DNA of 64,000 nucleotides from NCBI RefSeq assembly GCF_025244905.1, contig NZ_CP104285.1:2666001-2730000 (forward strand). The letters are read 5' to 3'. Below, in pieces: positions 5,595 to 61,601 of the stretch (its first letter is position 1; each line of letters begins with the position of its first letter). The DNA is from Enterobacter mori (GTDB taxonomy: Bacteria > Pseudomonadota > Gammaproteobacteria > Enterobacterales > Enterobacteriaceae). The notes under the pieces are model-generated. The model saw nothing but the letters and a program-made list of their open reading frames with translations. It did not search any database and had not been told where the DNA came from. The translations under genes and the position numbers were made by a program.

Positions 5595-6089
5595 TTAGTT
5601 CAGGATCCAGGTGCCGTTTGCGCTGTCTTTGCAGGCTTTGCTGTTGCCATCGACATCAACACAGGTTGCTTTCTTACGCGCTTTTGGACGCAGCGCCTGT
5701 TTACGCACGGTGGCTTCGTACTGGTCGGCTTTGATGACGGCGCGCATTGGGACGTAGCCAATCAGCTGTTCGTTCCCTTCGTCGGCAAGCGCCATCCAGA
5801 AGTGTTCAACCTGACCCAGCACCACGTAGGTTTTGCCGGTCTCGAGCGTGCGGATCACTTTTCCGCCGTAGTCCGGACGGCTCATCAGGGATGCGGGGTA
5901 CATGGCGCGATAAGGCTCATTCACCTGGGTGAACTCCGCCGGGGGCAGCACAACATGACGGTGAGTTAAGGTGACGCCGTTAACCTGGCTGGTCACGATA
6001 GTATCGTCAGTGATCACAGGTTTCTGCGGTGCTTTACAGCCCGCCACCGCCATTACAAACAGAAGTGAAAACAGTACGCGCATTTTCAT
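5595..6089 (-). CDS. SH3-like lipoprotein at the head of the T6SS operon
   Basis: This 164-residue protein has a short signal sequence and a lipobox VAGC (Cys18 if the first ATG is used; a second ATG two codons later is also possible). The middle part, around LGQVEHFWMAL and IGYVPMRAVIK, looks like a bacterial SH3-type beta-barrel. The C-terminal stretch is basic and carries two cysteines eleven residues apart (ATC and KAC), which could form a disulfide. It is the first visible gene of the operon, 24 bases before tssJ. I do not recognise a named gene. An envelope accessory of the T6SS, perhaps wall binding, is an inference from context; an immunity protein is an alternative. Confidence 0.7.
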   Translation of the reverse strand: MKMRVLFSLLFVMAVAGCKAPQKPVITDDTIVTSQVNGVTLTHRHVVLPPAEFTQVNEPYRAMYPASLMSRPDYGGKVIRTLETGKTYVVLGQVEHFWMALADEGNEQLIGYVPMRAVIKADQYEATVRKQALRPKARKKATCVDVDGNSKACKDSANGTWILN

Positions 6090-7093
6090 ATGCTTTTCCG
6101 TAGCGATATTTCGATGATGGAGATAAGGAGATGAAGTTTGACTTAAGTGCTATTGTTAAAATGGTCAGGATATTTTCGGGGCGTTACTATTTTAAAGGCA
6201 TAGCTACCGCACGAGCCCTTCAGAATAAGGCCCAGCGTCTTCCTGACATATTTTGACAAACGGTAAACAAGTTTACATGAGCTTCGCATCAATTCAATAT
6301 TTACCGTTACGTAACTGTTGGTAAATGAAGCAGACGACAGATTATAAGATTAATCTTAATAAAAAATCATACATGGCCTACCCCTCTTTATTTACCCTCC
6401 TTTGAAACCTTATAACCACCTGTTTTATAAAACAAAAACCAAAAAGAGAACCACTTTCATTAACGCAATGACGCTATTATCGCCACTACCATAATTAGTA
6501 GAATTCGCGTATTGGTGATGTCAGAAGAACATATCGCCGATGAATTATTTGTTGCACTAACAGGGTATCTTTAATATTTCACGTACTTTACGCTCAGAAT
6601 GGGTCTATTTCACTGATGCGGCCCGGCGTTAATTTCACGGCTCAAAATAACTTTATATTTCACGTTAGGATAATTTCTCTTTAAGGCATAAATTATATCC
6701 ATGAATCATTAAGCCAGAGTTAACCTTCCTGTCATTAACGCCACCGGAAAATGCATGCAATTACCCGCCCGCTGCGAACCTTGTCTATTTCTAACGCTCA
6801 GGCGCTTCATTCGAAATTTTACTGGTGCTACATACTTGCTTGTTCACCACCATCTATCTCACCTACCGGATGATAGATAATATTTATTATTAAAATGATA
6901 AAAATTCGTTATAATTTCTTTAAATCTTTAGGTGTAACATCCAATAAAACACTGTAATAAAAAGAATTTAGGAAGAAGCAATTTTCCATTCCGCATGCGC
7001 ATAGCCATCCGGTCATCATTGCTTTCGCTTATTGCCTGACGCAGTGCTTTTATGGGTTCAGATGTTGTGTGACCGAACAAACCAGGAGTGGGT
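6090..7093. other. About 1 kb A+T-rich intergenic region between T6SS operon and ydeP-like gene
   Basis: No credible open reading frame was found on either strand. The region is strikingly A+T rich next to both flanks, and must hold the promoter of the leftward T6SS operon and of the rightward oxidoreductase. A TATAAT hexamer at 6910-6915 (plus strand) is a possible -10 element but has no convincing -35. The composition is the kind often silenced by H-NS, which is inference only. Confidence 0.5.
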
Positions 7094-9382
7094 ATGAACA
7101 CGAAAAGACGCGCAGTTCCCGGTATCAGACACTATGACGGTCCCGCCGGAGGCTGGGGCGCGTTAAAAGCGACGGCCATCGCAGTACGTACCCAAATGGA
7201 TACTCTGGACGCCCCCGCGACGCTGCTCCGTACAAACCAGCCGGACGGTTTTGACTGCCCGGGCTGCGCGTGGCCTGATAAGGAACATAAATCGACGTTC
7301 CAGTTCTGCGAGAATGGCGCGAAGGCGGTGACCTGGGAAGCCACCAGCAAACGCGTCACTCCCGCGTTTCTGGCGGAAAACAGCGTCGCTTCGCTGCTGA
7401 CAAAATCGGACTTTGAGCTGGAAGGCTACGGTCGCCTGACGCATCCCCTGCGCTACGACCGGGCAAGCGATACCTTCCGCCCTGTCGACTGGGACGAGGC
7501 GTTCCAGCGTATCGGTGAAATCTTGCGCGGGCTCGAACCGGACCAGGTCGAGTTCTATACCTCGGGGCGCGCCTCTAACGAAGCGGCATACTTGTTCCAG
7601 CTCTTCGCCCGCGAATACGGTACCAATAACTTTCCAGACTGCTCGAATATGTGCCACGAAGCCACCAGCGTCGGTTTGCCGCGATCTATCGGGATCGGGA
7701 AAGGCACCGTCTCACTGGACGACTTTGATAAGACCGAACTGGTGATCTCCATCGGCCATAACCCTGGCACCAACCATCCGCGAATGATGGGCACCCTTCA
7801 TGAGTTGGCACGTCGCAACGTGCCGATTATCGTCTTTAACCCGCTGCGCGAGCGCGCCCTCGAACGTTTTGCGGACCCGCAGAGCGTGATTGAAATGGCG
7901 ACCTACAGCTCCACGGATATCGCCTCGACCTGGTTCCAGGTGAAAGCCGGGGGCGATGCCGCCGCGCTGAAAGGGATTGCTAAACATCTTCTGGAGATGG
8001 AAGCCGAACGCGGTGACGTGCTGGATCGCGAATTTATTGCTGAGCACACCCAGGGCATTGAGGACTTCACCGCCGATATCGCGCAAACCCGCTGGGAGGA
8101 CATTGAGCGCGAGTCGGGGCTCAGCCCGGCGGCGCTCAAGAAGGTGGCCGAGTCCTATGCCAAATCGAATGCCACCATCATCACCTATGGAATGGGGGTC
8201 ACCCAGCATAATAAAGGCACGGCGAACGTCCGACTGATTGCCGACGTTCTGCTGCTGCGCGGGAACATCGGCAAGCCCGGCGCGGGTATCTGCCCTCTGC
8301 GCGGCCACTCAAACGTGCAGGGAAACCGTACCGTCGGGATTAGCGAGAAACCCACACCGGCCTTCCTGAACCGTCTGAAGGACGTCTTCGGCTTTGAGCC
8401 GCCGTCTCACCACGGGCATGACGCCGTGCAGGCAACGCAGGCGATGATTGACGGACATGCGAAGGCGCTTATCTGCCTCGGCGGCAATTTTGCGGTTGCG
8501 ATGCCCGATCATGAACGGGGCTTTCCGGCGATGGGTAACCTGGATTTGAGCGTGCACGTCGGCACCAAGCTGAACCGTACCCATCTGCTGGTGGGCAAAG
8601 AGACCTTTATTTTCCCATGCCTCGGCCGCACCGAGCTGGATCTCCAGGCCACCGGCCGTCAGTCCATTACCGTCGAAGATTCCATGTCGATGGTGCACGC
8701 CTCGTCCGGCAAGCTGAAACCCGCCTCACCGTTACTCCGTTCGGAACCCGCCATCGTGGCTGGCCTGGCGAAAGCCACACTGCCGGAAACACGCGTGGAC
8801 TGGCTGACGCTGGTTGAGGATTACGACCGCATCCGCGATCTGATCGAGCAGACCATTCCGGGCTTTGAGCACTACAACGCGCGGATCCGGGTTCCCGGCG
8901 GCTTCCGCATGCCGCTGCCGCCAACGCAACGCATCTGGCCAACCGCAACGGGCAAAGCAATGTTCTCGGTATTCGAGGGGGTTCATGAGAACGCCAGCGG
9001 TGAAGGCGAACATGTGCTGCGTCTGATTACGCTGCGCAGCCATGACCAGTACAACACCACCATCTACGCCCTGGATGACCGCTACCGTGGGGTATTTGGC
9101 CGCCGCGACGTGCTGTTTATGAACGAAGACGATATGGCACAGTCAGGGCTGGAACACGGCGACCGCGTGGATATCGAAACCGCCCTGCCCGGCAGCGTTC
9201 AGCGCCTGGAGGACATTACCGTGGTGGCGTACAGCATCGCCCCAGGATCTGTCGGGGCATACTACCCGGAGGCTAACGTGCTGGTGCCGCTCGATTATCT
9301 GGATAAGGACAGCGGTACGCCGTCGTATAAATCCGTTCCGGTTCGCATCACCCTGCGCTCAAAAGAGATCCGCATGCTGTAA
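7094..9382 (+). CDS. ydeP: FdhF/YdeP-family molybdopterin oxidoreductase
   Basis: This 762-residue protein belongs to the family of E. coli YdeP, a formate-dehydrogenase-like bis-MGD oxidoreductase whose substrate is unknown and which has been linked to acid resistance. It matches YdeP throughout, including the N-terminal CPGCAWP motif (Cys55, Cys58), YTSGRASNEAA, DCSNMCHE and the C-terminal MGD-binding RSHDQYNTTIY. I do not see the usual four-cysteine 4Fe-4S cluster motif or a Tat signal, so it is probably cytoplasmic. The ATG at 7094 is preferred over the in-frame GTG at 7088 because AGGAG at 7084-7088 is correctly spaced for the ATG. A LysR gene follows after 19 bases. Confidence 0.88.
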   Translation: MNTKRRAVPGIRHYDGPAGGWGALKATAIAVRTQMDTLDAPATLLRTNQPDGFDCPGCAWPDKEHKSTFQFCENGAKAVTWEATSKRVTPAFLAENSVASLLTKSDFELEGYGRLTHPLRYDRASDTFRPVDWDEAFQRIGEILRGLEPDQVEFYTSGRASNEAAYLFQLFAREYGTNNFPDCSNMCHEATSVGLPRSIGIGKGTVSLDDFDKTELVISIGHNPGTNHPRMMGTLHELARRNVPIIVFNPLRERALERFADPQSVIEMATYSSTDIASTWFQVKAGGDAAALKGIAKHLLEMEAERGDVLDREFIAEHTQGIEDFTADIAQTRWEDIERESGLSPAALKKVAESYAKSNATIITYGMGVTQHNKGTANVRLIADVLLLRGNIGKPGAGICPLRGHSNVQGNRTVGISEKPTPAFLNRLKDVFGFEPPSHHGHDAVQATQAMIDGHAKALICLGGNFAVAMPDHERGFPAMGNLDLSVHVGTKLNRTHLLVGKETFIFPCLGRTELDLQATGRQSITVEDSMSMVHASSGKLKPASPLLRSEPAIVAGLAKATLPETRVDWLTLVEDYDRIRDLIEQTIPGFEHYNARIRVPGGFRMPLPPTQRIWPTATGKAMFSVFEGVHENASGEGEHVLRLITLRSHDQYNTTIYALDDRYRGVFGRRDVLFMNEDDMAQSGLEHGDRVDIETALPGSVQRLEDITVVAYSIAPGSVGAYYPEANVLVPLDYLDKDSGTPSYKSVPVRITLRSKEIRML

Positions 9383-9401
9383 GGCTGCCCGCGCAGAGAT
9401 A

Positions 9402-10310
9402 ATGATGGATATTAAACAGCTTAAATATTTAATCGCACTCGACGAGACCCGGCACTTTGGTAAAGCGGCCTCGCAGTGCAACGTCACCCAGCCAACCCTC
9501 TCCATGCGCATCCGCAACCTGGAAGAGGAGCTGGGGCTGGTGCTGATTGTGCGCGGACAGCGCTTTGAAGGGTTTACGCCGGAGGGAGAACGCATCCTCG
9601 CGTGGGCGCGTGCCCTGCTGGCCGCGCACGACGGGTTACAGGCGGAAGCCGCGCTGTGCAAAGGCCAGGTGGTGGGTGAACTACGGCTGGGGATGGTGCC
9701 GCTGGCGAGCGTGGATCCGATGATCTTCATTCGCCTGCTGACGCAAAAGTACCCGGAGCTGACCTACAGCCTCTATTCCATGTCCTCAGCGCAGATTGCC
9801 GATGGCGTCAGCCGCAACCAGCTTGAGCTGGGAATTTGCTATCTCAACAGCATCGATACCAGCCTGTTTGACATTATCCCTCTGCCGAAAACGAAGATGG
9901 GCCTGCTGCACGACATTCGCCATTTCCAGCTCGGCCAGTCAACGCTGACCTGGCACGACCTGACGGAATTTCCGCTGGGCTTCCTGACCAAAGGGATGCA
10001 CTACCGGGCGCATATGGAGGCCAGCTTCAACGCCGCAGGCCTCGATCCGACGGCCGTTTTCGAGAGCGACTCGACGTTCCAGATCATTCAGGCGGTTCAG
10101 AGTGGCGTGTGCTGCGCCGTGATGCCGTTGAACAACGGGCTGGAGGCACTGAACAGCAATTTCAGGATCGTCCCCATCGCCGAGGCGAACTTTGAGGCGC
10201 CTGTCGGGCTGATTATGCGCAGGCAGAAACCCGTCTCCTCGCTGGCGCTACGCTGTTTTACCGATGCGCAGGAAATTTATAGCCCTGTTGATGAAGGCGA
10301 TTATTGCTAA
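9402..10310 (+). CDS. LysR-family transcriptional regulator next to ydeP
   Basis: The product is 302 residues, the normal LysR length. Residues 1-60 form the winged helix-turn-helix (ETRHFGKAASQCNVTQPTLS), followed by a linker helix and a periplasmic-binding-like effector domain. The N-terminus resembles the OxyR subgroup, but the OxyR redox cysteine arrangement is not evident. It lies in the same direction 19 bases after the YdeP-like gene, so it is probably co-transcribed with it and regulates it; this is inference. An ATG three bases downstream (9405) is an equally possible start. Confidence 0.85.
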   Translation: MMDIKQLKYLIALDETRHFGKAASQCNVTQPTLSMRIRNLEEELGLVLIVRGQRFEGFTPEGERILAWARALLAAHDGLQAEAALCKGQVVGELRLGMVPLASVDPMIFIRLLTQKYPELTYSLYSMSSAQIADGVSRNQLELGICYLNSIDTSLFDIIPLPKTKMGLLHDIRHFQLGQSTLTWHDLTEFPLGFLTKGMHYRAHMEASFNAAGLDPTAVFESDSTFQIIQAVQSGVCCAVMPLNNGLEALNSNFRIVPIAEANFEAPVGLIMRRQKPVSSLALRCFTDAQEIYSPVDEGDYC

Positions 10311-10339
10311 AGGAGAGGCATTGATTGCATATCTCTCCT
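10311..10339. terminator. Inverted repeat between convergent lysR and rdrB
   Basis: AGGAGAG (10311-10317) and CTCTCCT (10333-10339) form a perfect 7-bp stem with a 15-base loop, starting immediately after the LysR stop codon. It lies between two convergent genes, where a terminator is expected. There is no strong T-run on either side, so an intrinsic terminator is only possible, not shown. Confidence 0.35.
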
Positions 10340-10366
10340 AAAATTAATAATATACCATCATAGTTT

Positions 10367-12910
10367 TCAATATTGATTCATATGGTTTTTGTTAAATATA
10401 TCAATCCCTTTCTTTCGAATCGCATCTATCCACATATCAGCCATCCAGGATCCGATACCGAAACTTTGGATGGCTGTCTCTCTCATTAAACGGTGTTCAT
10501 TTGCGATTGTGGTTGGCATGAGCGCACTATCGTCAGTATTTATGCATACCCCTAATGGACCGCTTCTTAACCCAAAACGATTGCATTTCTCACCGGGTTT
10601 TAGCCAATCCGGGTTGGGTGGATTCCAGCGAAATAAAGGATGCTCCTGATATTTTTCAAACCGCCCAATATATATGTTGGACGTCGGGCAAGCTTCAATC
10701 ACCAGCCCTTTTCTTGAGTATTTTTCCATCAAAAAATCCTGAATGGCCTCATATAATCGCAATTCCCCACAAGAAATGATATCAGTATCGACAGATCCTC
10801 CGGTGAATTTATCACCACCATCTGGCTGACAATTTACTGATATTATATGATTAAAAGGATTATTCTCTTCGAGTCCACTATCTAGATACCGTTTCCAAAG
10901 CGTTTTCGGACTCAAATCTCTATGATCATCATCATTCATTAACAAATCAGCATCGGGCACCCACTCATAAAAATTAGCGATTTCAGATTGCATCGTATTG
11001 AAATCGGGCCAGTTTCGTCTTAATAGCCACGCCTGATATAACAAGCCAGGTGTCGAAACAGTGTTGTAAAGCCGATGCGACCAATAATGAATTTTATCAC
11101 GTAACTCATGCATTACAGGAATATGCTCAACCGTAAGTTGTGAAAGGTGAACAGCTTGATGATAAGCCCATACTAAATTATCGAGGTGTTGTCCTGCTGT
11201 TAAATAAGCCCGCCTTTGACGTTTTGCCCAACTCGCTGGTTTGACCCCAAGCGCCAGACCATGACCTAACCGATCGCCTTCGCTTAGTAAACAATATTCA
11301 ACGGCTTCATCCAAAGCCCTAAGCCCACTTAGCAAGTGACTATAATCCTCACCAGCATGTACTGTAATAAAGGGACGCTGCAGTCTTGTTGATAATGAAA
11401 GTCCTTTCGGGTGTTTTCCTGCCCTGAGTACTCTAAGTACCGGAGAGAATACCTCTATTGGTAATTCATTTTCATTTCCCGCTACATCATAACCCCTGAC
11501 TAAGCGCCTGACATCTATTGTTTTGGGCATATCGTCAATATTATTTTGGTATGCATCTTCCTGCAATGTCACAGAAGAATTAAACATTTCAAAGCCGCGC
11601 ACTTGACTCAAAAGATTAGCTCTGTAACTTTCTAACCTTTTGTCGTTTGGTCGTTTTTTATCGGGGTAGCCACGAGTAAAGTGAACAACTAAATGCGATT
11701 TTTCGAGAATATTTTCTTCTTCATGCCGGGCATAGAAGTCCGAAATTTTATTATGGTAAATGTTGGGCTTATTTTGACCAAGGACATAATCAGGTGACAC
11801 ACGATATTCTCTATAAACCCCTTCAAGAAAATCATACTTCATCCCTTCGCTTTCGAAATATTTTTTATCTGCCCGTCTGATCCCTGATGTAAAATACTCA
11901 ACAAATTGTCCTAATCCAACAGAAGATACAACCATATAATTTCGTAAAACATTGCTGCAGCGAACGAAATTCATCAAACAGTTCCGATAGTCTGTATTGT
12001 GAGTATCAGTCAGCACGGCAATGCAAAAAAGCAACCAGCGATGATGCCCACGAAAACGCTCGTTAACAGATGCATGTAAGAACCTTTGCTGCATTGTCAC
12101 ACAAGGCAGAAAATGTTTAACTTGCTGTATAGTCCACACATCTTCCTTATGAGAAGAACCATGTAAAGCATCTTCCAACACTCTATATTCTATAGCTTTA
12201 TTCTCATCAGAATGAGATAAAAATTTAACAAGGCACGATACATAACCAGACAAATAGTCAGGGATTTTGTGTTTATTTAAAAACCCACTTTCAAAAAGAG
12301 TATACTCTTCTCTTCGAGGCCATTTAATTTTTCTATTAAGTTTGAAATCACCATCAATGAAACTGAGCATTGATAATGAGGTATAACCATGCCCATTGAA
12401 ATGAACGTGATTATCGGCATAAGCAGTCTCTTTCCTTTCTCCTGGAAAAGCAAAAGGACATTGTCTCCCCGTCAGTATTGATATCAGATCATCTTCTGAC
12501 AGAACATTCTGTTTCACTAATTGACTGTAGGCAGTGGATATTATCCATGCTGGATCCAATAAAGAACAGATCATCAACCATGATTCGAGTCGTTCTCCCT
12601 TAACTTCAAAACAATCTCCCTGCCATTGTAAAAAATGGTTGGCCAATTCTGTAAGAATATCTAATGCATTGATATATGAATCTTTATATCGCCAATGATT
12701 AATATTGTTGACAATGTCTTCGTTTCGAAGTCGTCCTCCAAAATAATGCTGATAATCACGCGCGGCTGAAGCGAGTATATTGTGCTCATTTTGTTGACCA
12801 ATCGTAAAAGTTGAATGCTGATTTGCATGATTCATCAGATGGTGATAAAAAAGGCGATCTGATGACAAAGTCATCACTGGGATCAACCAATAAGGATCTT
12901 GATTAAACAT
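10367..12910 (-). CDS. rdrB: RADAR anti-phage protein RdrB, large adenosine-deaminase-fold enzyme
   Basis: This 847-residue protein carries every signature of the adenosine deaminase metal-dependent hydrolase fold spread over an unusually long chain: HVHFNG (His168, His170, metal ligands), HAGE (518-521, metal His and catalytic Glu), GDRLGHG (545-551, catalytic His), EACPTSN (739-745) and NTDDS (791-795, metal Asp). Ordinary adenosine deaminases are about 330-350 residues, so roughly 500 residues are inserted or added, as in RADAR RdrB. Known RdrB proteins assemble into large shells with RdrA and deaminate adenosine in RNA and/or ATP during phage infection. The gene follows rdrA after 8 bases, and its ribosome site overlaps the rdrA stop (TAGAGG). 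Substrate specificity cannot be read from sequence. Visibly A+T rich. Confidence 0.9.
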   Translation of the reverse strand: MFNQDPYWLIPVMTLSSDRLFYHHLMNHANQHSTFTIGQQNEHNILASAARDYQHYFGGRLRNEDIVNNINHWRYKDSYINALDILTELANHFLQWQGDCFEVKGERLESWLMICSLLDPAWIISTAYSQLVKQNVLSEDDLISILTGRQCPFAFPGERKETAYADNHVHFNGHGYTSLSMLSFIDGDFKLNRKIKWPRREEYTLFESGFLNKHKIPDYLSGYVSCLVKFLSHSDENKAIEYRVLEDALHGSSHKEDVWTIQQVKHFLPCVTMQQRFLHASVNERFRGHHRWLLFCIAVLTDTHNTDYRNCLMNFVRCSNVLRNYMVVSSVGLGQFVEYFTSGIRRADKKYFESEGMKYDFLEGVYREYRVSPDYVLGQNKPNIYHNKISDFYARHEEENILEKSHLVVHFTRGYPDKKRPNDKRLESYRANLLSQVRGFEMFNSSVTLQEDAYQNNIDDMPKTIDVRRLVRGYDVAGNENELPIEVFSPVLRVLRAGKHPKGLSLSTRLQRPFITVHAGEDYSHLLSGLRALDEAVEYCLLSEGDRLGHGLALGVKPASWAKRQRRAYLTAGQHLDNLVWAYHQAVHLSQLTVEHIPVMHELRDKIHYWSHRLYNTVSTPGLLYQAWLLRRNWPDFNTMQSEIANFYEWVPDADLLMNDDDHRDLSPKTLWKRYLDSGLEENNPFNHIISVNCQPDGGDKFTGGSVDTDIISCGELRLYEAIQDFLMEKYSRKGLVIEACPTSNIYIGRFEKYQEHPLFRWNPPNPDWLKPGEKCNRFGLRSGPLGVCINTDDSALMPTTIANEHRLMRETAIQSFGIGSWMADMWIDAIRKKGIDIFNKNHMNQY

Positions 12911-12918
12911 ATTATCCT

Positions 12919-15456
12919 CTAACGGTAATGTTCAGTTGCAAATGTAAGACCATTGTACATTCTGGCAATAAAATTATTACCTTTAATCTTTGATTTCATT
13001 TTGGAATTGCTCATTATTTTATCTAAGATTATGTTGGCAATATCTTTTTTATCCCTGGCCCATTCAACCACTTCAGCCGTTATAATACTTTCATTTCCGG
13101 AATCCATTCCATACAGAACTCTAATTTCATTAAAAGATGTTGCAGATAAAAAATCATTTTTTAAACTATGACTAGCATCTCCCTCAAAAATAGTATCACC
13201 GATAGGATACTCATTAATATTCGAAGAAAAAAATAACGGGTTGCACCACATCGCCTGTATTAATTTTGCATAATCAGAGTCAGTTAATAATTCGATAGTA
13301 AGGGCTGTATTCCCACTAGCTGAAACTACTCCGGATATGTTTCTTAACAATGTTCGATCAGCCTTAGAAAATTCCGAGAATTTTCTCACAACGTCAGAAC
13401 GGGCACCCGTCGCGACATTGGCATTAATGATTAAACCTTCTTTCAAGAAAGTTGTTAGTGCATTAATATAAATATACTGGAATCTACGAGCTAAATCAGA
13501 AAGATGTTCATCCTTAATCTTTTTCTTGTCCAGCAAGTTTAATTTTAGCACGTTAAGCTGTGAGAACACCTTATTGAATACCATACTGTTTAGCGGTATT
13601 AAATTAAGACCCTGAAGTGATGGCAATCGATTATCATTAAACCATTCGTATAAGTCACTGGAAAATTTAGAAACAGTTTTATCATACTCAACTAAATTGT
13701 CATCCGTTCCACTTTCACTGCTATCCTCAGTAATGACTTTCGTTGGATTAACAGCGAATATTGAATAAAAAGGCGCTTTCGAAAATAATGAAATAAAACT
13801 CTCCTTGAACTTTTTCTCTTCAAGAAAAATTTCAGGCAAGTTATTTGTAATAGCTAACATGGACCATGACAACAATTCAAATGCACGGCTAAAGAATATA
13901 TGATACCTTCGATTTTGTTGCTGACTATAGTAATCCCTATGCGTATAAATTGCCAGTAATTCCTTATTACCATGTTTATTTTCCGCTGTCGTTTTACTAA
14001 TAAACATTGGCTCCATTATAAACTCTAACTCTGGCATACTCCTCAAGATATTAGTTTCCTCTGAAGGGACACCTACCATTGCCTGAGGAAAAACTGTTTC
14101 TAAAATTTCAGAGTTTGTATCATGGGCACGTAGTTCTCTTATTTTGGCATGCTGTTGCGAATAAAAATCTTTATCAGCCCAGGCATATCGCTCTTTTTGT
14201 AATAATGGATTAAACGCTGGCAAATTGTGAAAATCTAGCTGGCTGGATGAGGACATTTCCATAATTTTCAGATATGATTCAGCGTTTGTGATCGCAACGC
14301 CATCTCGACGATCTTCAGCCCAGACATAGAAGTTACGCCATAGCGATTCTGATTTTTCCTTGCCAGAATAAAGTTCTTCAGGAGGCAGTAATCTGACTAG
14401 TTGCGAAACGGTTCGCGCGCTATCGGGCTGTGGCCAAATGGTGCTACGTTCGTTTCCGTTGCAAAGTGGGTAGAATACACTTTTGATCAGTTTTTCATAA
14501 CCCGGATAGCTTATTTTCTGCTTTCCATATTTTATCACTAAATTTGGCAGGAGTTGCTGTACCGGCAGCAACGGCAAGCGATCGTGGAATGGAAAAACTT
14601 TAGTCAGATAGGCTGAAGAAAGTTGCTCTGCGGCATTTTTAACTCTCGTTGACGTTCTTCCTGCTGCTAAGGAATTTTCAAATTGCATTGTGGTAATATG
14701 TTTATATAACTCATCATCACCACTCACAAGAGGAAGTATTAATGGGCAAGACAGTAAGCATCTGATATCATCAAGAACGCCAAATGCATTATCAATTTTC
14801 ATATCAACATCGTCGACTGGCAATACTAATGCATCACAATTTAATAAATTTACACTTGCAATTAGAAACTCATGAAAATATCGTTCTATGTGTATTCCAG
14901 AACGATATTTTTGAATCCTATCTATCCCCCTTAATTCATTCAATTCTGATGATTCCCCAAGTGAACTGGATAATTTCTTTAAAGTTTCAAAGAAGTTATC
15001 CTTATGTAATTGATCGCTTTCCGGCCTTCTTAAAACCTTTTCTACCGAGGCATATACAGAAGCGATAATGACTTCAGAAAATCTGTCGCCAATATTTAAA
15101 AGGGTAGGATCGATAACGTCTATAAAATGAAGATTAGGGGAATCATTTTGACTTTTTTCTTTTTTCGACCATACCGCCTGCGCATTACGTAAAAAGACTG
15201 TTTTACCGGTACCTCTGGCTCCGCTAACAAAAATTGCATGATGATAACTATGTAATTTCCCGGGAAATTGCGAATATCTAGACTCATGCTCTTTTTTATA
15301 TTTCCGAGCCTCCTTGCCCATTTTATCTAATAAGGAAACCAAACGTATGTTAGCATCTTGTTGCCAAAGTTCACTTTGCTCATTATTCTCATCTGCTGAG
15401 TGAAAGTCATCTTTATATTCAGGTGCGTCAAGATTAAGTATAATACTGCTTAGCAT
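12919..15456 (-). CDS. rdrA: RADAR anti-phage protein RdrA, P-loop ATPase
   Basis: The product is 845 residues. A Walker A motif GARGTGKT lies at 79-86, a Walker B-like LVLPVDDVD at 210-218, and a sensor-like LVSGDDEL near 243. The long C-terminal part has no recognised motif. RdrA proteins are AAA+-like ATPases of about 800-900 residues that form ring oligomers and act with RdrB. The pairing with a giant adenosine deaminase directly downstream is what makes the call firm. The ATG at 15456 has GAGGG four bases upstream. One typical line (13201-13260) holds only 22 G/C in 60 bases, unlike the G+C-rich neighbours, which points to horizontal acquisition. Confidence 0.9.
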   Translation of the reverse strand: MLSSIILNLDAPEYKDDFHSADENNEQSELWQQDANIRLVSLLDKMGKEARKYKKEHESRYSQFPGKLHSYHHAIFVSGARGTGKTVFLRNAQAVWSKKEKSQNDSPNLHFIDVIDPTLLNIGDRFSEVIIASVYASVEKVLRRPESDQLHKDNFFETLKKLSSSLGESSELNELRGIDRIQKYRSGIHIERYFHEFLIASVNLLNCDALVLPVDDVDMKIDNAFGVLDDIRCLLSCPLILPLVSGDDELYKHITTMQFENSLAAGRTSTRVKNAAEQLSSAYLTKVFPFHDRLPLLPVQQLLPNLVIKYGKQKISYPGYEKLIKSVFYPLCNGNERSTIWPQPDSARTVSQLVRLLPPEELYSGKEKSESLWRNFYVWAEDRRDGVAITNAESYLKIMEMSSSSQLDFHNLPAFNPLLQKERYAWADKDFYSQQHAKIRELRAHDTNSEILETVFPQAMVGVPSEETNILRSMPELEFIMEPMFISKTTAENKHGNKELLAIYTHRDYYSQQQNRRYHIFFSRAFELLSWSMLAITNNLPEIFLEEKKFKESFISLFSKAPFYSIFAVNPTKVITEDSSESGTDDNLVEYDKTVSKFSSDLYEWFNDNRLPSLQGLNLIPLNSMVFNKVFSQLNVLKLNLLDKKKIKDEHLSDLARRFQYIYINALTTFLKEGLIINANVATGARSDVVRKFSEFSKADRTLLRNISGVVSASGNTALTIELLTDSDYAKLIQAMWCNPLFFSSNINEYPIGDTIFEGDASHSLKNDFLSATSFNEIRVLYGMDSGNESIITAEVVEWARDKKDIANIILDKIMSNSKMKSKIKGNNFIARMYNGLTFATEHYR

Positions 15457-15472
15457 AGTCCCTCACAAAAAA

Positions 15473-15478
15473 ATTATA
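15473..15478 (-). promoter_or_regulatory. Candidate -10 element for the rdrAB operon
   Basis: On the minus strand a perfect TATAAT lies about 17 bases before the rdrA ATG and is followed by a T-run. Transcription from it would give a leader of about 10 bases, just enough for the GAGGG ribosome site. No good -35 lies at 17 bases; a TTGAAA is 22 bases upstream, inside the palindrome. Tentative. Confidence 0.4.
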
Positions 15479-15480
15479 GT

Positions 15481-15516
15481 TAAGATTTAGTTGTTTCGCA
15501 TTTCAACTTAATCTTA
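15481..15516. promoter_or_regulatory. 36-bp palindrome upstream of rdrA
   Basis: Left arm TAAGATTTAGTTG (15481-15493) and right arm CAACTTAATCTTA (15504-15516) pair at 12 of 13 positions around a 10-base spacer. It sits directly upstream of the candidate rdrA -10 element and covers the expected -35 position, where a repressor or activator would bind. On the minus strand it could also fold as an A/T-rich hairpin ending the upstream desaturase-PhnD transcript, but the T-run starts about 7 bases after the stem. Operator is favoured, unproven. Confidence 0.5.
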
Positions 15517-15614
15517 TCAATTACTTACGTCCATGACCATCTTTAAAGACAATTCTGATTTACAGATTAAAAGAAACAGAAATCTGCATAAGCCCTCATG
15601 AAATGGAGGAAAGT

Positions 15615-16385
15615 TTAGAGAACGAGACTGCCAAGCAGTTGAGAATAATCCTGACGCGTCACCACGCTAAAACCGCCGATGAGCACCGCGTCGCAAACGT
15701 CTCGATGTTCCGGCGCATCCACCAGCGCGCGTAGCGCATCGCGAATGGCGTTCAGCGTTTCAGCCGAGGTATTGTGCGAGGTGATGAGCGGCAGCCCCGG
15801 CGTCAGAGGGGTACGGTCAATGACCGCCAGCCCCGCAAGCCGTTCCGGCTCATGGCGCTGCAGCAGTGCCCAGGTCACGCAGTCGATGGCCGCGATATCC
15901 CCTTCCCCACGCGCTACCTCAATCAACGACTGGCGATGGCTGCCGCTGAAAATCACCTGTGAAAAATAGTCATTGACCGTATCAGGTGCCACTCGTTTTC
16001 GCAGCGTGTTGTAGCCGGACTGGGAATCCGGCGAATTACATACCACCCGCCGCCCACGGAAATCATCAACGCGCAGGTGTTTATCTTCCTGGCGCACCAC
16101 CAGCAGGCTGCGGTAAGCAATCCCTTCGCAGCCCGGCGCCGCATAATGAAAACAGCCAACAACCTGCACGTCCGGCAACTGTGTTACCAGCGGATAACCG
16201 CAGGTCTGGCTCAGGATGAGTCCAGGCTGCTGCCAGTGCGTCAGTAACTCCTCTTCCGGGATGCCAGGCACAAGATCGCCCACCGATACACCGCGTGCCA
16301 GCAGCAAAGCGTGCACAGCTCGCCACAGCGCGTCGGTATCGGCCCGATTGACGGCATACATCGGAAACGCCAGCAGGTTACTCAT
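15615..16385 (-). CDS. PhnD/SsuA-like substrate-binding-fold protein
   Basis: The 256-residue product resembles PhnD-type phosphonate/phosphate-binding proteins (type 2 periplasmic-binding fold): GVSVGDLVPGIPEEEL at the N-terminus, LRVDDFRGRRVVCNSPDSQSG in the middle and LPLITSHNTSAETL near the end. It has no signal peptide or lipobox and no permease or ATPase gene beside it, so it may be cytoplasmic and not part of a transporter. Its ATG overlaps the stop of the desaturase gene (ATGAGTAA, 8-base overlap), so the two are translationally coupled. Ligand unknown. Confidence 0.7.
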   Translation of the reverse strand: MSNLLAFPMYAVNRADTDALWRAVHALLLARGVSVGDLVPGIPEEELLTHWQQPGLILSQTCGYPLVTQLPDVQVVGCFHYAAPGCEGIAYRSLLVVRQEDKHLRVDDFRGRRVVCNSPDSQSGYNTLRKRVAPDTVNDYFSQVIFSGSHRQSLIEVARGEGDIAAIDCVTWALLQRHEPERLAGLAVIDRTPLTPGLPLITSHNTSAETLNAIRDALRALVDAPEHRDVCDAVLIGGFSVVTRQDYSQLLGSLVL

Positions 16386-17361
16386 GCTCTTCTCGCTTTA
16401 TGCCCGGATGAACCGTGACGTCCACGGCCTTATCCCAAAACTGTCGCAGCCATTGGCCGTATCCCTTGACCACAAAACCGTGATTTCGCTGTTGATACAC
16501 CGCCCGGTTTTGCTGGTAGAGCGCCTTCAGACCATACCAGGGCACACCTGGCAGGTCATGATGTACTGAATGGTAGTTGAGATTCAAAAACAGCACCTGC
16601 CAGAAGATCCCGGCTTCGTTAATCACCGAGCGCGCAAGAGGATCGTCTGCAGCGCGGTGCTCGAGGAAAGAGCGTACTTTGGTGAGCGCCAGCGCGGGAT
16701 AGCTCACCGCCAGCACAAACCAGACCGGTGAGAAACCAACATGGCGCATCCAGACAAACAGCCCCGCCAACAGCACGCCATGCACCAGCCACATCAACAT
16801 CGCCCGCAGGTGCAGTTGGCGAAACGCCGCCACGGCACTTCCCAGCGTCTGGACGATATCCAGCAACGGAGCCAGTAACAACCGCCCCAGAAAAGTATTA
16901 CGCGCATGAATAATGCGCCTCTGCCAGGCCGTAAAACGCGCCCAGCTCTCTTCGGTAAAATAGTAGGATTCCGGATCGTCCACCGGTACCGTGAGATGAT
17001 CGTTGCGATGATGGGCCAGATGCGAGTCGCGGTACAGGCCATAGGGATACCAGACCGCCAGCGGCAGCGTACCGAAAAGCTGATTTAACCAGGGAAAACG
17101 TGTCGGATGGCCGTGGATCAGCTCATGCTGAAGCGACAGATACCACGCGGTAAACCAGATAAGCAGCGCCGTGGCAGGCAGTAAACCGAGCGTGTGCCAG
17201 TAGGCCAGGGTGGTAAACCAGCCGGTATAGATAGCAATCATTAACAGCCAGGTGGGAAGCTCGGTTCGCCACAGAAACCGCGTGGCAAGCTGGTGAATAT
17301 GCTCTCGCTGTTGCGGGTGTAAATAGTGACTCATTCCTTCCGATGCCGTTCCGCCTGTCAT
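16378..17361 (-). CDS. Membrane fatty acid desaturase family protein
   Basis: The 327-residue product has several hydrophobic segments and the three histidine boxes of di-iron membrane desaturases: HELIHGH (79-85), HLAHH (114-118) and HSVHH (264-268). Such enzymes insert double bonds or hydroxylate lipid chains. The start at 17361 has AGGA seven bases upstream; a second ATG ten codons later has a ribosome site too close. Enterobacteria normally make unsaturated fatty acids anaerobically through FabA/FabB, so this is an accessory enzyme with an unknown substrate. It heads a two-gene operon and is divergent from a GlxA-type regulator. Confidence 0.82.
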   Translation of the reverse strand: MTGGTASEGMSHYLHPQQREHIHQLATRFLWRTELPTWLLMIAIYTGWFTTLAYWHTLGLLPATALLIWFTAWYLSLQHELIHGHPTRFPWLNQLFGTLPLAVWYPYGLYRDSHLAHHRNDHLTVPVDDPESYYFTEESWARFTAWQRRIIHARNTFLGRLLLAPLLDIVQTLGSAVAAFRQLHLRAMLMWLVHGVLLAGLFVWMRHVGFSPVWFVLAVSYPALALTKVRSFLEHRAADDPLARSVINEAGIFWQVLFLNLNYHSVHHDLPGVPWYGLKALYQQNRAVYQQRNHGFVVKGYGQWLRQFWDKAVDVTVHPGIKREEHE

Positions 17362-17488
17362 TATGTGTCCTGACGATCCGGGAAAACGGCTGAAATAACA
17401 AAGAACTTAAATCACTTTGCTTTGCCAAAAATAGCGTTTAAGCGCTCTACCTGTTGACTTATTTTGTAATAAAGCTACTTTTCAGGAC

Positions 17489-18469
17489 ATGAAGAAGATC
17501 CTGATTATTGTTCCCGACGGCGGCATGCTGTTTGAAGCCGCCGGTATCGCCGACATTCTGATGCAGGCCAACCGACTGCATCCGGAAGGTCTGTCTCACC
17601 CTTGTTACCGCATCATCATCGCCACCACGCAGCCCCATCAGGTGATCCACGGTCAATCGGGATTAAACCTGCTGGCAGATTATCGTCTGCCTGAACTGGA
17701 CCCGCGTGAGCCGCTTGATACCATCATCATTACCGGCCGCGGCATGAATGAACAGGAGAGCACTGCCGTGGTGGACTGGCTGCATCTTGCAGCGCCCCAT
17801 GCGCGGCGTATTGCCTCCATCTGCGGCGGCGCGATGCTGCTTGCGCAGAGCGGCTTGCTTGACGGACGGCGGGCAACCACACACTGGCGTCTGCTGGAGA
17901 CGATGCAGGCCGCTTATCCGGCCATCAGGGTGGAAGGCGGCCCGATCTATGTTCAGGATGGGCCTATCTGGACCTCCGGTGGGGTCAGTTCCGGTTTCGA
18001 CCTGACGCTGGCCCTGGTTGAAGACGATTATGGTTTCTCTCTCGCCCGCGACGTGGCGCAGGATATGGTGATGTACTTACGCCGCCCGGGCGGGCAGCTG
18101 CAGTTTAGCCGCTATAATTTGCAGCAGTCCGGCGCCCAGGGGCCGATTAGCGATCTGCAAAGCTGGATCCTGCAAAACCTGGCCGCCGATCTCTGCGTTG
18201 AGAGCCTGGCGGAAAGAGCGGCGATGAGTCCCCGTAATTTCACTCGCGTATTCACGCGGGATGCGGGGGTCTCTCCGGCACGCTACGTGACGGAAGCGCG
18301 TCTTGCCGCCGCCCGGCAGTTGCTTGAGCAAACCACCGATCCGCTGGAGCTGATTGCTGAGCAAAGCGGGTTTGGCACCAGCATCAACCTGCGTCGTGTT
18401 TTCGAGAAACAGCTTCATCTCACCCCAACGGAATATCGCCAGCGTTTCCACTGCCGTAAGATGGCGTAA
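17489..18469 (+). CDS. GlxA-family transcriptional regulator (DJ-1/PfpI plus AraC domains)
   Basis: This 326-residue protein joins an N-terminal class I amidotransferase-like domain (DJ-1/PfpI fold, about residues 1-185, with ASICGGAMLLAQSGLLDG) to a C-terminal AraC helix-turn-helix pair (about 215-320, MSPRNFTRVFTRDAGVSPARY). That is the GlxA architecture, whose members often sense small metabolites. It is divergent from the desaturase-PhnD pair across 127 bases and is the likely regulator of that pair. The ribosome site AGGA is very close to the ATG, so initiation may be weak. Confidence 0.85.
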   Translation: MKKILIIVPDGGMLFEAAGIADILMQANRLHPEGLSHPCYRIIIATTQPHQVIHGQSGLNLLADYRLPELDPREPLDTIIITGRGMNEQESTAVVDWLHLAAPHARRIASICGGAMLLAQSGLLDGRRATTHWRLLETMQAAYPAIRVEGGPIYVQDGPIWTSGGVSSGFDLTLALVEDDYGFSLARDVAQDMVMYLRRPGGQLQFSRYNLQQSGAQGPISDLQSWILQNLAADLCVESLAERAAMSPRNFTRVFTRDAGVSPARYVTEARLAAARQLLEQTTDPLELIAEQSGFGTSINLRRVFEKQLHLTPTEYRQRFHCRKMA

Positions 18470-18547
18470 TGTGATCCTTTTTTGTCATTTACGCCATTCA
18501 GACTGACGCTTACAGTGACTCCAGACAACAGAGATAAGGAGTGCATC

Positions 18548-19558
18548 ATGGTTAAGGTCGGTATTAACGGTTTCGGCCGTATCGGACGTAATGTTCTGCG
18601 CGCGGCGCTGGGTAACCCGGATCTTCAGATTGTGGCCATTAACGATCTGACGGACAGCCAGACCCTCGCCCATCTGCTCAAATATGATTCCCTGCTCGGC
18701 ACGCTGCAGGCACCCGTTGAGGCGGCTGACGGCGCGTTACAGGTGGACGGGCAGCGGATCACCGTATTCAGCGAACGCGATCCGGCGAATATCCCGTGGC
18801 GTGACGTTGGGGTGGACGTGGTGATTGAAGCCACCGGTTTCTTCACCGAACGCGAAAAGGCGGCGGTACATATCACCCACGGTGGCGCTAAGCGCGTCAT
18901 CATCTCTGCACCGGGCAAAAACGATGACCTGACGGTGGTGATGGGTGTAAACCACGAGCTGTACGATCCGGCCCAGCACGCCGTCGTGAGTAACGGGAGT
19001 TGTACCACTAACGGACTGGCTCCGGCAGCGCAGGTGCTGCATCAGCATTTTGGTATTGAGCACGGCCTGATGAACACCACGCATGCATATACCAACAGCC
19101 AGGCGCTGCACGACCAGCCGGAGAAAGATCTGCGCGGTGCACGCGCGGCGGCCCTGTCGATTGTGCCTTACTCCAGCGGCGCGGCGAAGGCGCTGGGGAA
19201 AGTGATCCCCTCTCTGGACGGTAAGCTGACCGGGTATTCTCTGCGTGTGCCGGTTCCGGTGGTGTCAATTGTGGATTTGACGGTAACGCTGAGCCGTAAC
19301 GTGACCGCCGACGAGGTGAATGATGCGTTCCGTCAGGCCGCGGCTAGCGGACCACTGAAAGGGATACTGGGCTATAGCGATGAACCGCTGGTCTCCAGCG
19401 ATTACCAGGGCGACCCGCGCTCCTCAATTATCGACGGGCTGTCGACGCTGGTGATTGGCGGTAACATGGTCAAAATTCTTGCGTGGTATGACAACGAGTG
19501 GGGATTCTCAAACCGCCTGGTGGATCTGGCGGTGCTGATGGATAAGAAAGGGTTGTAA
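18548..19558 (+). CDS. Second glyceraldehyde-3-phosphate dehydrogenase (GapA-like)
   Basis: The 336-residue product is a class I phosphorylating GAPDH: NAD-binding GINGFGRIGRN at the N-terminus, INDLTD (Asp33 region, NAD preference), catalytic Cys152 and His179 (THAYTN). The active-site segment reads SNGSCTTNGLAP instead of the usual SNASCTTNCLAP, so two flanking positions are changed to glycine. The sequence resembles Gram-positive-type GapA enzymes more than E. coli GapA, whose gene would be elsewhere. The ATG at 18548 is preferred over an in-frame upstream TTG because AAGGAG lies seven bases before it. The next gene is convergent. Confidence 0.88.
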   Translation: MVKVGINGFGRIGRNVLRAALGNPDLQIVAINDLTDSQTLAHLLKYDSLLGTLQAPVEAADGALQVDGQRITVFSERDPANIPWRDVGVDVVIEATGFFTEREKAAVHITHGGAKRVIISAPGKNDDLTVVMGVNHELYDPAQHAVVSNGSCTTNGLAPAAQVLHQHFGIEHGLMNTTHAYTNSQALHDQPEKDLRGARAAALSIVPYSSGAAKALGKVIPSLDGKLTGYSLRVPVPVVSIVDLTVTLSRNVTADEVNDAFRQAAASGPLKGILGYSDEPLVSSDYQGDPRSSIIDGLSTLVIGGNMVKILAWYDNEWGFSNRLVDLAVLMDKKGL

Positions 19559-44802: not shown

Positions 44803-44829
44803 ATCATTTTCTCTTTTGTTTGCGCCCAT

Positions 44830-44853
44830 AAAAAACGCCGGCTTAACCGGCGT
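44830..44853 (-). terminator. fadD terminator / U-rich leader of rnd
   Basis: On the minus strand ACGCCGG-TTAAG-CCGGCGT is a perfect 7-bp stem followed by TTTTTT. It is a good intrinsic terminator for fadD. It also lies about 28 bases before the rnd TTG, and in E. coli a stem plus U-run at this place is known to be needed for rnd translation, so it may do both jobs. Confidence 0.8.
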
Positions 44854-44873
44854 CTGGGCGATTAACGTGAAGC

Positions 44874-46559
44874 TCAGGCCTTATTGTCTACTTTGGCACG
44901 GGCTTCGTCACGTAATTCTCGTCGTAATATCTTCCCGACGTTGGATTTTGGCAGTTCATCGCGGAATTCCACCAGCTTCGGCACCTTGTAGCCCGTTAAC
45001 TGACGACGGCAGAAGGTTATCAGCTCTTCCTCATTCAGCGAAGGATCTTTCTTGACCACAAATATCTTCACCGCTTCACCGCTGCTGCCGGAAGGGACGC
45101 CAACTGCCGCCACTTCGAGCACGCCGCTGTGCTGCATAACCACATCTTCGATTTCGTTCGGGTAGACGTTAAAGCCGGAGACCAGGATCATGTCTTTCTT
45201 GCGATCGACAATGCGCAGGAAACCTTCGTCGTCCATCACGGCGATATCGCCGGTATGCAGCCAGCCGTCTTTGATGATCTCGTCCGTAGCATCCGGACGT
45301 TGCCAGTAGCCCAGCATCACCTGCGGCCCTCTTACGCACAGCTCGCCAGGCTCCCCATGAGGCACTTCGTTATCCTCATCATCCACCAGCTTCGCTTCGG
45401 TCGACGGAACAGGCAGGCCAATGCTGCCGCTGTGGTAGTCAATGTCGTGCGGGTTCACGCTCACCAGCGGCGCGCATTCCGTCAGGCCATAGCCTTCCAG
45501 CAGGTACTGGCCGGTAAGCTTCACCCAGCGCTCGGCAACCGCCTGCTGAACCGGCATGCCGCCGCCCGCCGAGAGGTGCAGCGTGGAGAAATCCAGCTGC
45601 TGGAACTCTTTGTTATTCAGCAGCGCATTAAACAGGGTATTCACCCCCGTCATGGCGGTGAACGGGTATTTCGCCAGCTCTTTCACCAGGCCCGGGATAT
45701 CGCGCGGGTTGGTGATGAGTATGTTCTGACCACCCAGCTCAATAAACAGCAGGCAGTTCATGGTCAGCGCAAAGATGTGATACAGCGGAAGCGCGGTGAT
45801 CACCACCTCTTTGCCCGGATGCAGCAGCGGCCCGTAAGTGGCGTTCACCTGTTCAAGGTTCGCCAGCATGTTCCGGTGCGTCAACATCGCGCCTTTCGCC
45901 ACGCCGGTGGTACCACCGGTATACTGCAGGAAGGCGAGATCTTCTGACACCACTTCTGGCTTGACGTATTGCATACGGTAGCCCGCGTGCAGCGCACGGC
46001 GGAAGGAAATGGCGTCCGGCAGGTGATACTTCGGTACCAGCCGCTTCACGTATTTAACGACAAAGTTAACCAGCGTGCCTTTGGCCGTGGAAAGTTGATC
46101 GCCCATGCGCGTCAGGATGACGTGTTTCACCTGGGTTCTGTCGACCACTTTTTCCAGCGTGTGGGCAAAGTTTGAGACAATGACAATTGCGACCGCGCCG
46201 CTGTCGTTCAACTGATGCTCAAGTTCACGTGGGGTATACAGCGGGTTAACGTTGACGACAATCATCCCGGCTCGCAGGATGCCGAACAGCGCGACCGGAT
46301 ATTGCAGCAGGTTCGGCATCATCAGCGCGACGCGGTCCCCTTTTTGCAGTCCCAGCCCTTCCTGAAGATATGCCGCAAACGCCCGGCTACGCTCTTCCAG
46401 CTTACGGAAGGTCATCACTTCACCCATGTTCACAAACGCAGGCTGGTCAGCGTAGCGCCGCACCGAGTGTTCAAATAATTCAACCAGGGATTGATAACGG
46501 TCAGGATTGATCTCCGCAGGCACATCTGCGGGATACCGGTTAAGCCAAACCTTTTTCAA
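44874..46559 (-). CDS. fadD: Long-chain fatty acid-CoA ligase FadD
   Basis: FadD activates imported long-chain fatty acids to acyl-CoA at the inner membrane, the entry to beta-oxidation and the signal for FadR. The 561-residue product has the AMP-binding motif [18 protein letters not shown] and the fatty acyl-CoA synthetase signature ([19 protein letters not shown]). The start is taken at TTG 46559 with GAGGTGA upstream, giving exactly the E. coli length and the N-terminus [13 protein letters not shown]; an in-frame ATG twelve codons upstream lies before that ribosome site. Confidence 0.93.
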
Positions 46560-61395: not shown

Positions 61396-61404
61396 AAGGT
61401 TGCG

Positions 61405-61560
61405 CCCGTCGTTGGGGAGTAGCCGATTTCCTGTTCTCAGGAAATGTACGTGTCAACATACTCGTTGAAAAACGTGGCGCGTACGGATCGCTTTCAGCAC
61501 ATTTCAGGTGTGTTGCGATCAGGCGAGACCATAGATACATCAACTGCTGTTTACTGGGGG
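61405..61560 (+). ncRNA. yybP-ykoY manganese riboswitch in the mntP leader
   Basis: The leader begins with GTTGGGGAGTAGCCGATTTC and ends with AACTGCTGTTTACTGGGGGC, which are the conserved features of the yybP-ykoY aptamer that precedes mntP in E. coli. Mn2+ binding favours mntP expression, adding RNA control to MntR control. Boundaries are approximate. Confidence 0.88.
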
Positions 61561-61601
61561 CAGTGATGTGTCATATGGATATCCCCGGTCTGGACGCTGT
61601 T

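Follow-up and report, generated by a model that had tools for sequence, protein, structure and literature searches.

The question raised by this locus is whether a pair of A+T-rich genes in Enterobacter mori encodes a working anti-phage system, and how the pair came to lie where it does. The window, that is the whole stretch of DNA that was analyzed, comprises 64,000 nucleotides (positions 2,666,001 to 2,730,000 of NZ_CP104285.1). An earlier reading made without database searches (the sequence-only reading) had taken the two genes for a functional and horizontally acquired RADAR operon. We arrive, with a probability of about 0.92, at an intact two-gene RADAR anti-phage operon, rdrA followed by rdrB, which forms a compact cassette between convergent lysR and phnD genes and would convert (d)ATP to (d)ITP when triggered by phage. 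The two genes are:

12919..15456, minus strand: rdrA, AAA+ ATPase of RADAR, 845 aa (PADLOC PDLC02217, NCBIfam NF041743, PDB 8hr7/8fnt)
10367..12910, minus strand: rdrB, adenosine-deaminase-family protein of RADAR, 847 aa (PADLOC PDLC02218, NCBIfam NF041744, PDB 8fnw/8fnv)

Only 8 bases (12911–12918) separate them, and both frames are open over their full length with no internal stop. The arrangement described earlier, a P-loop ATPase followed after 8 bases by an 847-residue protein without any frameshift, was thus recovered with the same coordinates and sizes. Comparison with models of known RdrA and RdrB, a check that the sequence-only reading had itself proposed, gave PADLOC matches of nearly full length for RdrA (PDLC02217, 1378.6 bits, residues 1–843) as well as RdrB (PDLC02218, 1538.4 bits, residues 1–846), and both proteins passed the cut-offs of the NCBIfam equivalogs (NF041743, 725.7 bits with a cut-off of 600; NF041744, 930.4 bits with a cut-off of 800). 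PADLOC and NCBIfam both name the tandem of RdrA and RdrB that is required of a RADAR. When the PDB was searched with the single sequences at E 0.001, the sole matches were RdrA chains (8hr7/8fnt) for RdrA and RdrB chains (8fnw/8fnv) for RdrB; the RADAR structure entries are 8FNT, 8FNU, 8FNV and 8FNW (PMC9994260). We also used profiles built from 42 RdrB-like and 37 RdrA-like proteins. For RdrB, whose deaminase core bears insertions 1–3 in characterized RADARs, the profile matched 8fnw over profile positions 35–846 (E 1.7e-57), followed by ordinary adenosine deaminases at about 1e-6 or weaker, and the RdrA profile matched 8hr7 (E 4.7e-44) and S. suis RdrA 8fnu (E 1.4e-10), in both cases mainly in the ATPase domain. 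RdrA had no match in Pfam at E 0.001. The RADAR identity proposed earlier therefore agrees with PADLOC, NCBIfam and PDB sequence searches, and judged by its sequence the locus is an intact two-gene copy of a system that is rare but already known. Current annotation models recognize it, and it is otherwise ordinary.

The catalytic residues of both proteins could be located:

15199..15222, minus strand: Walker A GARGTGKT, RdrA residues 79–86 (from the sequence and near-invariance in 37 RdrA proteins)
14803..14817, minus strand: Walker B VDDVD, RdrA residues 214–218 (D215 and D216 nearly invariant; D221 and D222 in E. coli RdrA)
12401..12409, minus strand: RdrB H168-V-H170, first zinc pair (invariant in 42 RdrB-like proteins; H152/H154 in E. 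coli)
11345..11359, minus strand: RdrB HAGED, residues 518–522, zinc H518 and catalytic E521 (both invariant in the 42 proteins; H498/E501 in E. coli)
11261..11272, minus strand: RdrB RLGH, residues 547–550, zinc H550 (invariant in the 42 proteins; H530 in E. coli)
10529..10534, minus strand: RdrB D793-D794 (invariant in the 42 proteins), which we take to be the C-terminal active-site aspartates of the ADA fold

Within Walker A, G79, R81, G82, G84 and K85 are nearly invariant among the 37 RdrA proteins. Walker A, Walker B, sensor 1 and sensor 2, the RdrA sites expected of a RADAR, are all present: by eye, G84-K85-T86, D215-D216, sensor 1 D247 and sensor 2 R348 correspond to E. coli G81-K82-T83, D221-D222, D253 and R377 (E. 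coli numbering of the catalytic residues of RdrA and RdrB from PMC9994260). RdrB likewise has the zinc histidine tetrad (H168, H170, H518, H550) together with the catalytic glutamate E521. The Walker A motif had already been placed at exactly these residues, and the earlier claim that all catalytic deaminase residues are present holds for the histidines, E521 and D793-D794 alike. An AlphaFold2 model of RdrA, inspected for the crown insertion and the helical C-terminal lobe expected of a RADAR, was of fair quality (mean pLDDT 81.8, pTM 0.75); it contains helices 126–142, 149–166 and 178–205 between the Walker strands, with pLDDT below 50 at 169–176 and 179–186, and a long, mostly helical C-terminal lobe (317–842). 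As far as intact frames and catalytic residues go, they are consistent with a functional operon.

We then considered how the genes are placed in the chromosome. The features concerned are:

10297..15649, no strand: inserted block of about 5.35 kb with rdrA-rdrB (flanks 6 bases apart in the sister genome G034; edges good to about 10 bases)
9402..10310, plus strand: lysR-type regulator, left flank (Pfam HTH_1 and LysR_substrate; last residues differ from the empty-site copy)
15615..16385, minus strand: PhnD-like substrate-binding protein, right flank (Pfam PF12974; last residues differ from the empty-site copy)

The flanking lysR and phnD genes form a convergent pair. The composition of the block is foreign to its surroundings, with 37.5% G+C as compared to 55.9% in the rest of the window, where the lowest value among 192 overlapping segments of 5.35 kb is 52.2%. 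Third-position G+C amounts to 31–33% in rdrA and rdrB and to 65–75% in five flanking genes, which bears out the sharp difference in composition described before. Using the left-flank lysR gene we searched 61 same-genus genomes and obtained 22 matches; 19 were gene-length, one of them being the window's own, while the 3 that were short were set aside. This comparison with related genomes lacking the locus, also suggested earlier, revealed no insert in 16 of the 18 other genomes carrying the gene, where lysR and phnD are spaced 6 to 60 bases apart. The other two (L097 and L098) have about 6.8–6.9 kb of other DNA at the junction; the site is variable. In the sister genome G034, which is 94% identical on both flanks, the matches to lysR and phnD lie 6 bases apart, so that the insert can be placed at about 10297–15649. 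Both genes beside it are still open and have C-terminal tails unlike those of the empty-site copies, which fits a cassette that inserted where the ends of the two genes meet better than one that the other genomes have lost. Because most sites are empty, the composition deviates, relatives reside on plasmids and the one other same-genus copy to exceed the cut-off, that of G026, is from a distant clade, the horizontal acquisition proposed by the sequence-only reading is supported, probably as gain of rdrA-rdrB in the form of a compact cassette. An empty site resolved to near base level in a sister genome is useful for asking how two-gene cassettes move without an adjacent integrase.

A mobile element as the cause was rejected, since there is no tRNA in the window, no integrase or transposase among 10 proteins scanned between 5067 and 19558, and no direct repeat of at least 14 nt linking the two junctions. 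We also discarded the junction as a defence hotspot, given that two of 18 genomes hold other DNA there and that the insert in one of them (L097:2700-9515) reads as transporter genes, assigned by eye, and a luciferase-like monooxygenase. Elsewhere in the window we noted an A+T-rich stretch of about 1 kb (6090–7087; 37.8% G+C in 6001–7000) in which no ORF exceeds 57 aa and which is bordered by a tagV-like type VI secretion gene on one side and by a YdeP-like oxidoreductase on the other, as well as an sroD sRNA (44829–44915) and a yybP-ykoY manganese riboswitch (61402–61592) barely over the gathering score.

RdrB is uncommon among related genomes. Scores above the equivalog cut-off occurred in 2 of the 61 genomes of the same genus and in 9 of the 392 of the same family, and any match at E 0.001 was found in 4 of 61 and 17 of 392, the window's own being included each time. 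These low counts fit the published rarity of RADAR, which was found in 270 of about 38,000 genomes (PMC9994260). The G026 protein is 34% identical over the aligned part. The nearest RdrB is that of Enterobacteriaceae bacterium RIT693 with 62% identity, the highest found, followed by those of two Pectobacterium and one Dickeya (59%, best segment) and of the Salmonella plasmid pIndS104-CTX (55%). A first scan of genome contigs yielded no RdrB relative and a profile scan yielded 45 loci. In a tree of 46 proteins the window's protein falls into a set of 8 rows with a support of 100/100, the inner order near it being poorly settled. Among relatives whose locus is not truncated at the end of a contig, most have an rdrA-like ORF ahead of rdrB. 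Megablast detected no near-identical DNA in E. coli genomes or plasmids, and RdrB relatives were absent from phage records and, by the patterns used, from viral contigs.

Some related loci are damaged. Within the genus, G007 (L099:8814-12115) retains a 116-aa C-terminal rdrB remnant; next to it lie a phage-type integrase and a transposase (rve), and close at hand a gene that by eye resembles smpB. The locus looks like a decayed RADAR in another island. In Catenovulum (L125:7980-9740) the rdrB frame is split, and in G267 (L105:12407-14944) rdrA is interrupted near its end. Two distant RADAR clades (L107, L100 and L102) share a chromosomal neighborhood, a gene run that by eye comprises pth, ychH and a SulP-type transporter, and this suggests that RADAR has landed there repeatedly.

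RIT693 deserves separate mention, as its RADAR lies in the same interval, from tagV to an AraC-GAPDH pair (L137:1689-16150 compared to 5595–19558 of the window). The tagV homologues are 56% identical and the members of the AraC-GAPDH pair 76% and 86%, and the divergence of RdrB is similar to that of tagV. In RIT693 the RADAR has the opposite orientation, the AraC-GAPDH pair is turned round and other genes are directly adjacent; the lysR and PhnD-like neighbors of the window had no match in L137 at E 1e-8. Two histories fit the shared interval: RADAR may have landed more than once in a region next to type VI secretion genes, or an older copy may have persisted while the interval was rearranged and have disappeared from other genomes. 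In the window, the changed tails of the flanking genes favor a fresh insertion at the present place. The empty sites support horizontal gain. That the nearest relative holds a RADAR in the same chromosomal interval counts against its simplest story, since RADAR may have been present in that region earlier, and raises the question why.

The sequence-only reading had stated that no third component of the RdrC/RdrD type is adjacent, RdrC and RdrD being names that we assume to denote third RADAR components. Neither name occurs in PMC9994260. The statement is correct: the block's genes are 56 bases away from the LysR regulator and 158 bases away from the PhnD-like gene, spacers that leave no room for a third component in the window, and ORFs of at least 20 aa at 15400–15700 appear chance-like by eye. 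We further clustered neighboring ORFs of at least 50 aa in 63 RADAR or RADAR-like stretches, several of them cut by contig ends and one (L150) without an RdrB ORF; L160 was left out, and six pairs represent the same locus twice, leaving about 57 distinct loci. By this clustering no third gene recurs beside RADAR across the window's clade, in which neighbor clusters are shared between the two Pectobacterium loci, between Dickeya and G267, and between the window and RIT693 (three chromosomal genes). Third genes do follow rdrB elsewhere; they form two clusters, one seen in 7 stretches and the other in 6, with no member from the window's clade. Absence of a third gene is normal for this clade.

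In Rahnella inusitata (L123:5900-7254) and Enterovibrio (L132:10752-12094) rdrB is followed on the same strand by a Ham1/ITPase-family gene and a SIR2_2 gene; PF01725 membership was tested in L123 and assigned by clustering in L132. A family that cleaves inosine triphosphate here adjoins a system that makes it. We nevertheless rejected the pair as a RADAR accessory, because relatives of the SIR2 gene occur in 202 plasmid records and each of the 12 listed overlaps a gene annotated as NTP pyrophosphatase. The pair is more likely a cassette of its own.

How might this copy act? RdrA and RdrB of characterized systems assemble a giant complex, and upon infection RdrB turns ATP into ITP and dATP into dITP, with minimal RNA editing (PMC9994260). 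Since family identity and active site match those of characterized RADARs, phage-triggered deamination of (d)ATP to (d)ITP is most likely for this copy as well. RdrA would form a ring ATPase that responds to a phage cue, and RdrB would assemble into a multimeric deaminase shell. During infection the two would act jointly on ATP and dATP to give ITP and dITP, the (d)ITP would poison the nucleotide pool, and the phage would be stopped at the cost of the infected cell. We infer co-transcription, assembly, substrate, trigger and phage spectrum from other RADARs.

As first reported, RADAR acts differently: RdrB would edit adenosines in RNA instead of free nucleotides and thereby drive abortive infection. 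According to PMC9994260, RNA editing had previously been described for the C. rodentium system, with which that study itself saw a weak signal, e.g. about 4% in ssrA after 60 min. In the same study, however, E. coli RdrB left an RNA hairpin unedited in vitro and (d)ITP built up with the RADAR of E. coli as well as with that of C. rodentium, and the window's RdrB has the same catalytic residues, which makes RNA editing very improbable here. Of the substrates named earlier, RNA and/or ATP, the mononucleotides are favored by PMC9994260. That the pair might be a separate ATPase and adenosine deaminase outside RADAR, such as a CARF-ADA-like system or a relative of housekeeping ADA, could be argued from the sole Pfam match of RdrB, a partial A_deaminase hit of 28.5 bits (cut-off 27, residues 706–760), and from PADLOC CARF_ADA also being listed at 19.6 bits. 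Scores of 1538 and 1379 bits with the RADAR models, the equivalog cut-offs passed and the rdrA-like ORF ahead of rdrB in most uncut relatives speak so strongly against it that we regard this as practically out of the question.

The operon may also have been inserted and now be silent or decaying, as the remnant in G007, the split rdrB of L125 and the interrupted rdrA of L105 illustrate for related loci. The number of promoter-like sites is close to what chance would give (22 found, 18.5 expected, sd 4.7), which could point to silence. The terminator scan was also near chance, and our conclusions draw on neither scan. Against decay stand the two frames, open over their full length, and the intact catalytic residues, and we consider such a copy unlikely. 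The intact (d)ATP-deaminating RADAR operon remains our preferred reading.

Among known systems, Cad1, the CRISPR-associated adenosine deaminase, shares an ADA-family domain and, according to the title of PMC11645235, converts ATP to ITP. It differs in being a CARF fusion, whereas RdrB of the window scores only 19.6 bits with CARF_ADA. The RADAR clade with a third gene (Pluralibacter, Kosakonia, Silvania; L128 tested as PDLC02219) has the same rdrA-rdrB order and active-site residues, but its RdrB is 28–29% identical to the window's and a 245-aa third gene lies 11 bases after rdrB. The Aliivibrio salmonicida plasmid pVSAL840, with annotated rdrA/rdrB, shares both genes and their order, and its RdrB is 44% identical; unlike the present locus it is a plasmid, typed as conjugative, and its two genes overlap by one base. 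Closest is the clade of PDLC02217/PDLC02218 (RIT693, Pectobacterium, Dickeya, Salmonella pIndS104-CTX), with the same genes, order and catalytic residues and 55–62% identity in RdrB, whereas the directly adjacent genes are unlike those of the window.

The E. coli RADAR (PDB 8FNT, 8FNV, 8FNW; PMC9994260) shares by alignment the same Walker, sensor and zinc-site residues, but its chains measure 947 (RdrA) and 799 (RdrB) residues compared to 845 and 847 here. With L101 as E. coli-type reference (its RdrB matches 8fnw with 1626 bits), local identity is 24% for RdrB (352 columns) and 25% for RdrA (257 columns); this low identity is offset by the clade having its own PADLOC models and named relatives. 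In weak and gappy alignments judged by eye, residues important for the E. coli assembly are mostly not conserved: the acidic triad E595–E597 at the three-fold interface of E. coli RdrB faces R-L-Y, so that no such triad is found at the aligned place, and the crown residues K150, E151 and R162 of E. coli RdrA face P145, E146 and E157, with a like residue only at E151. The clade might thus keep the active sites of RADAR and differ in its RdrA-RdrB and RdrB-RdrB contacts, giving an assembly of other geometry or regulation with the same chemistry, which we think unlikely. Since its sequences are so far from those of the E. coli and S. suis proteins with known structures, the clade is well suited to testing which contacts the assembly really needs.
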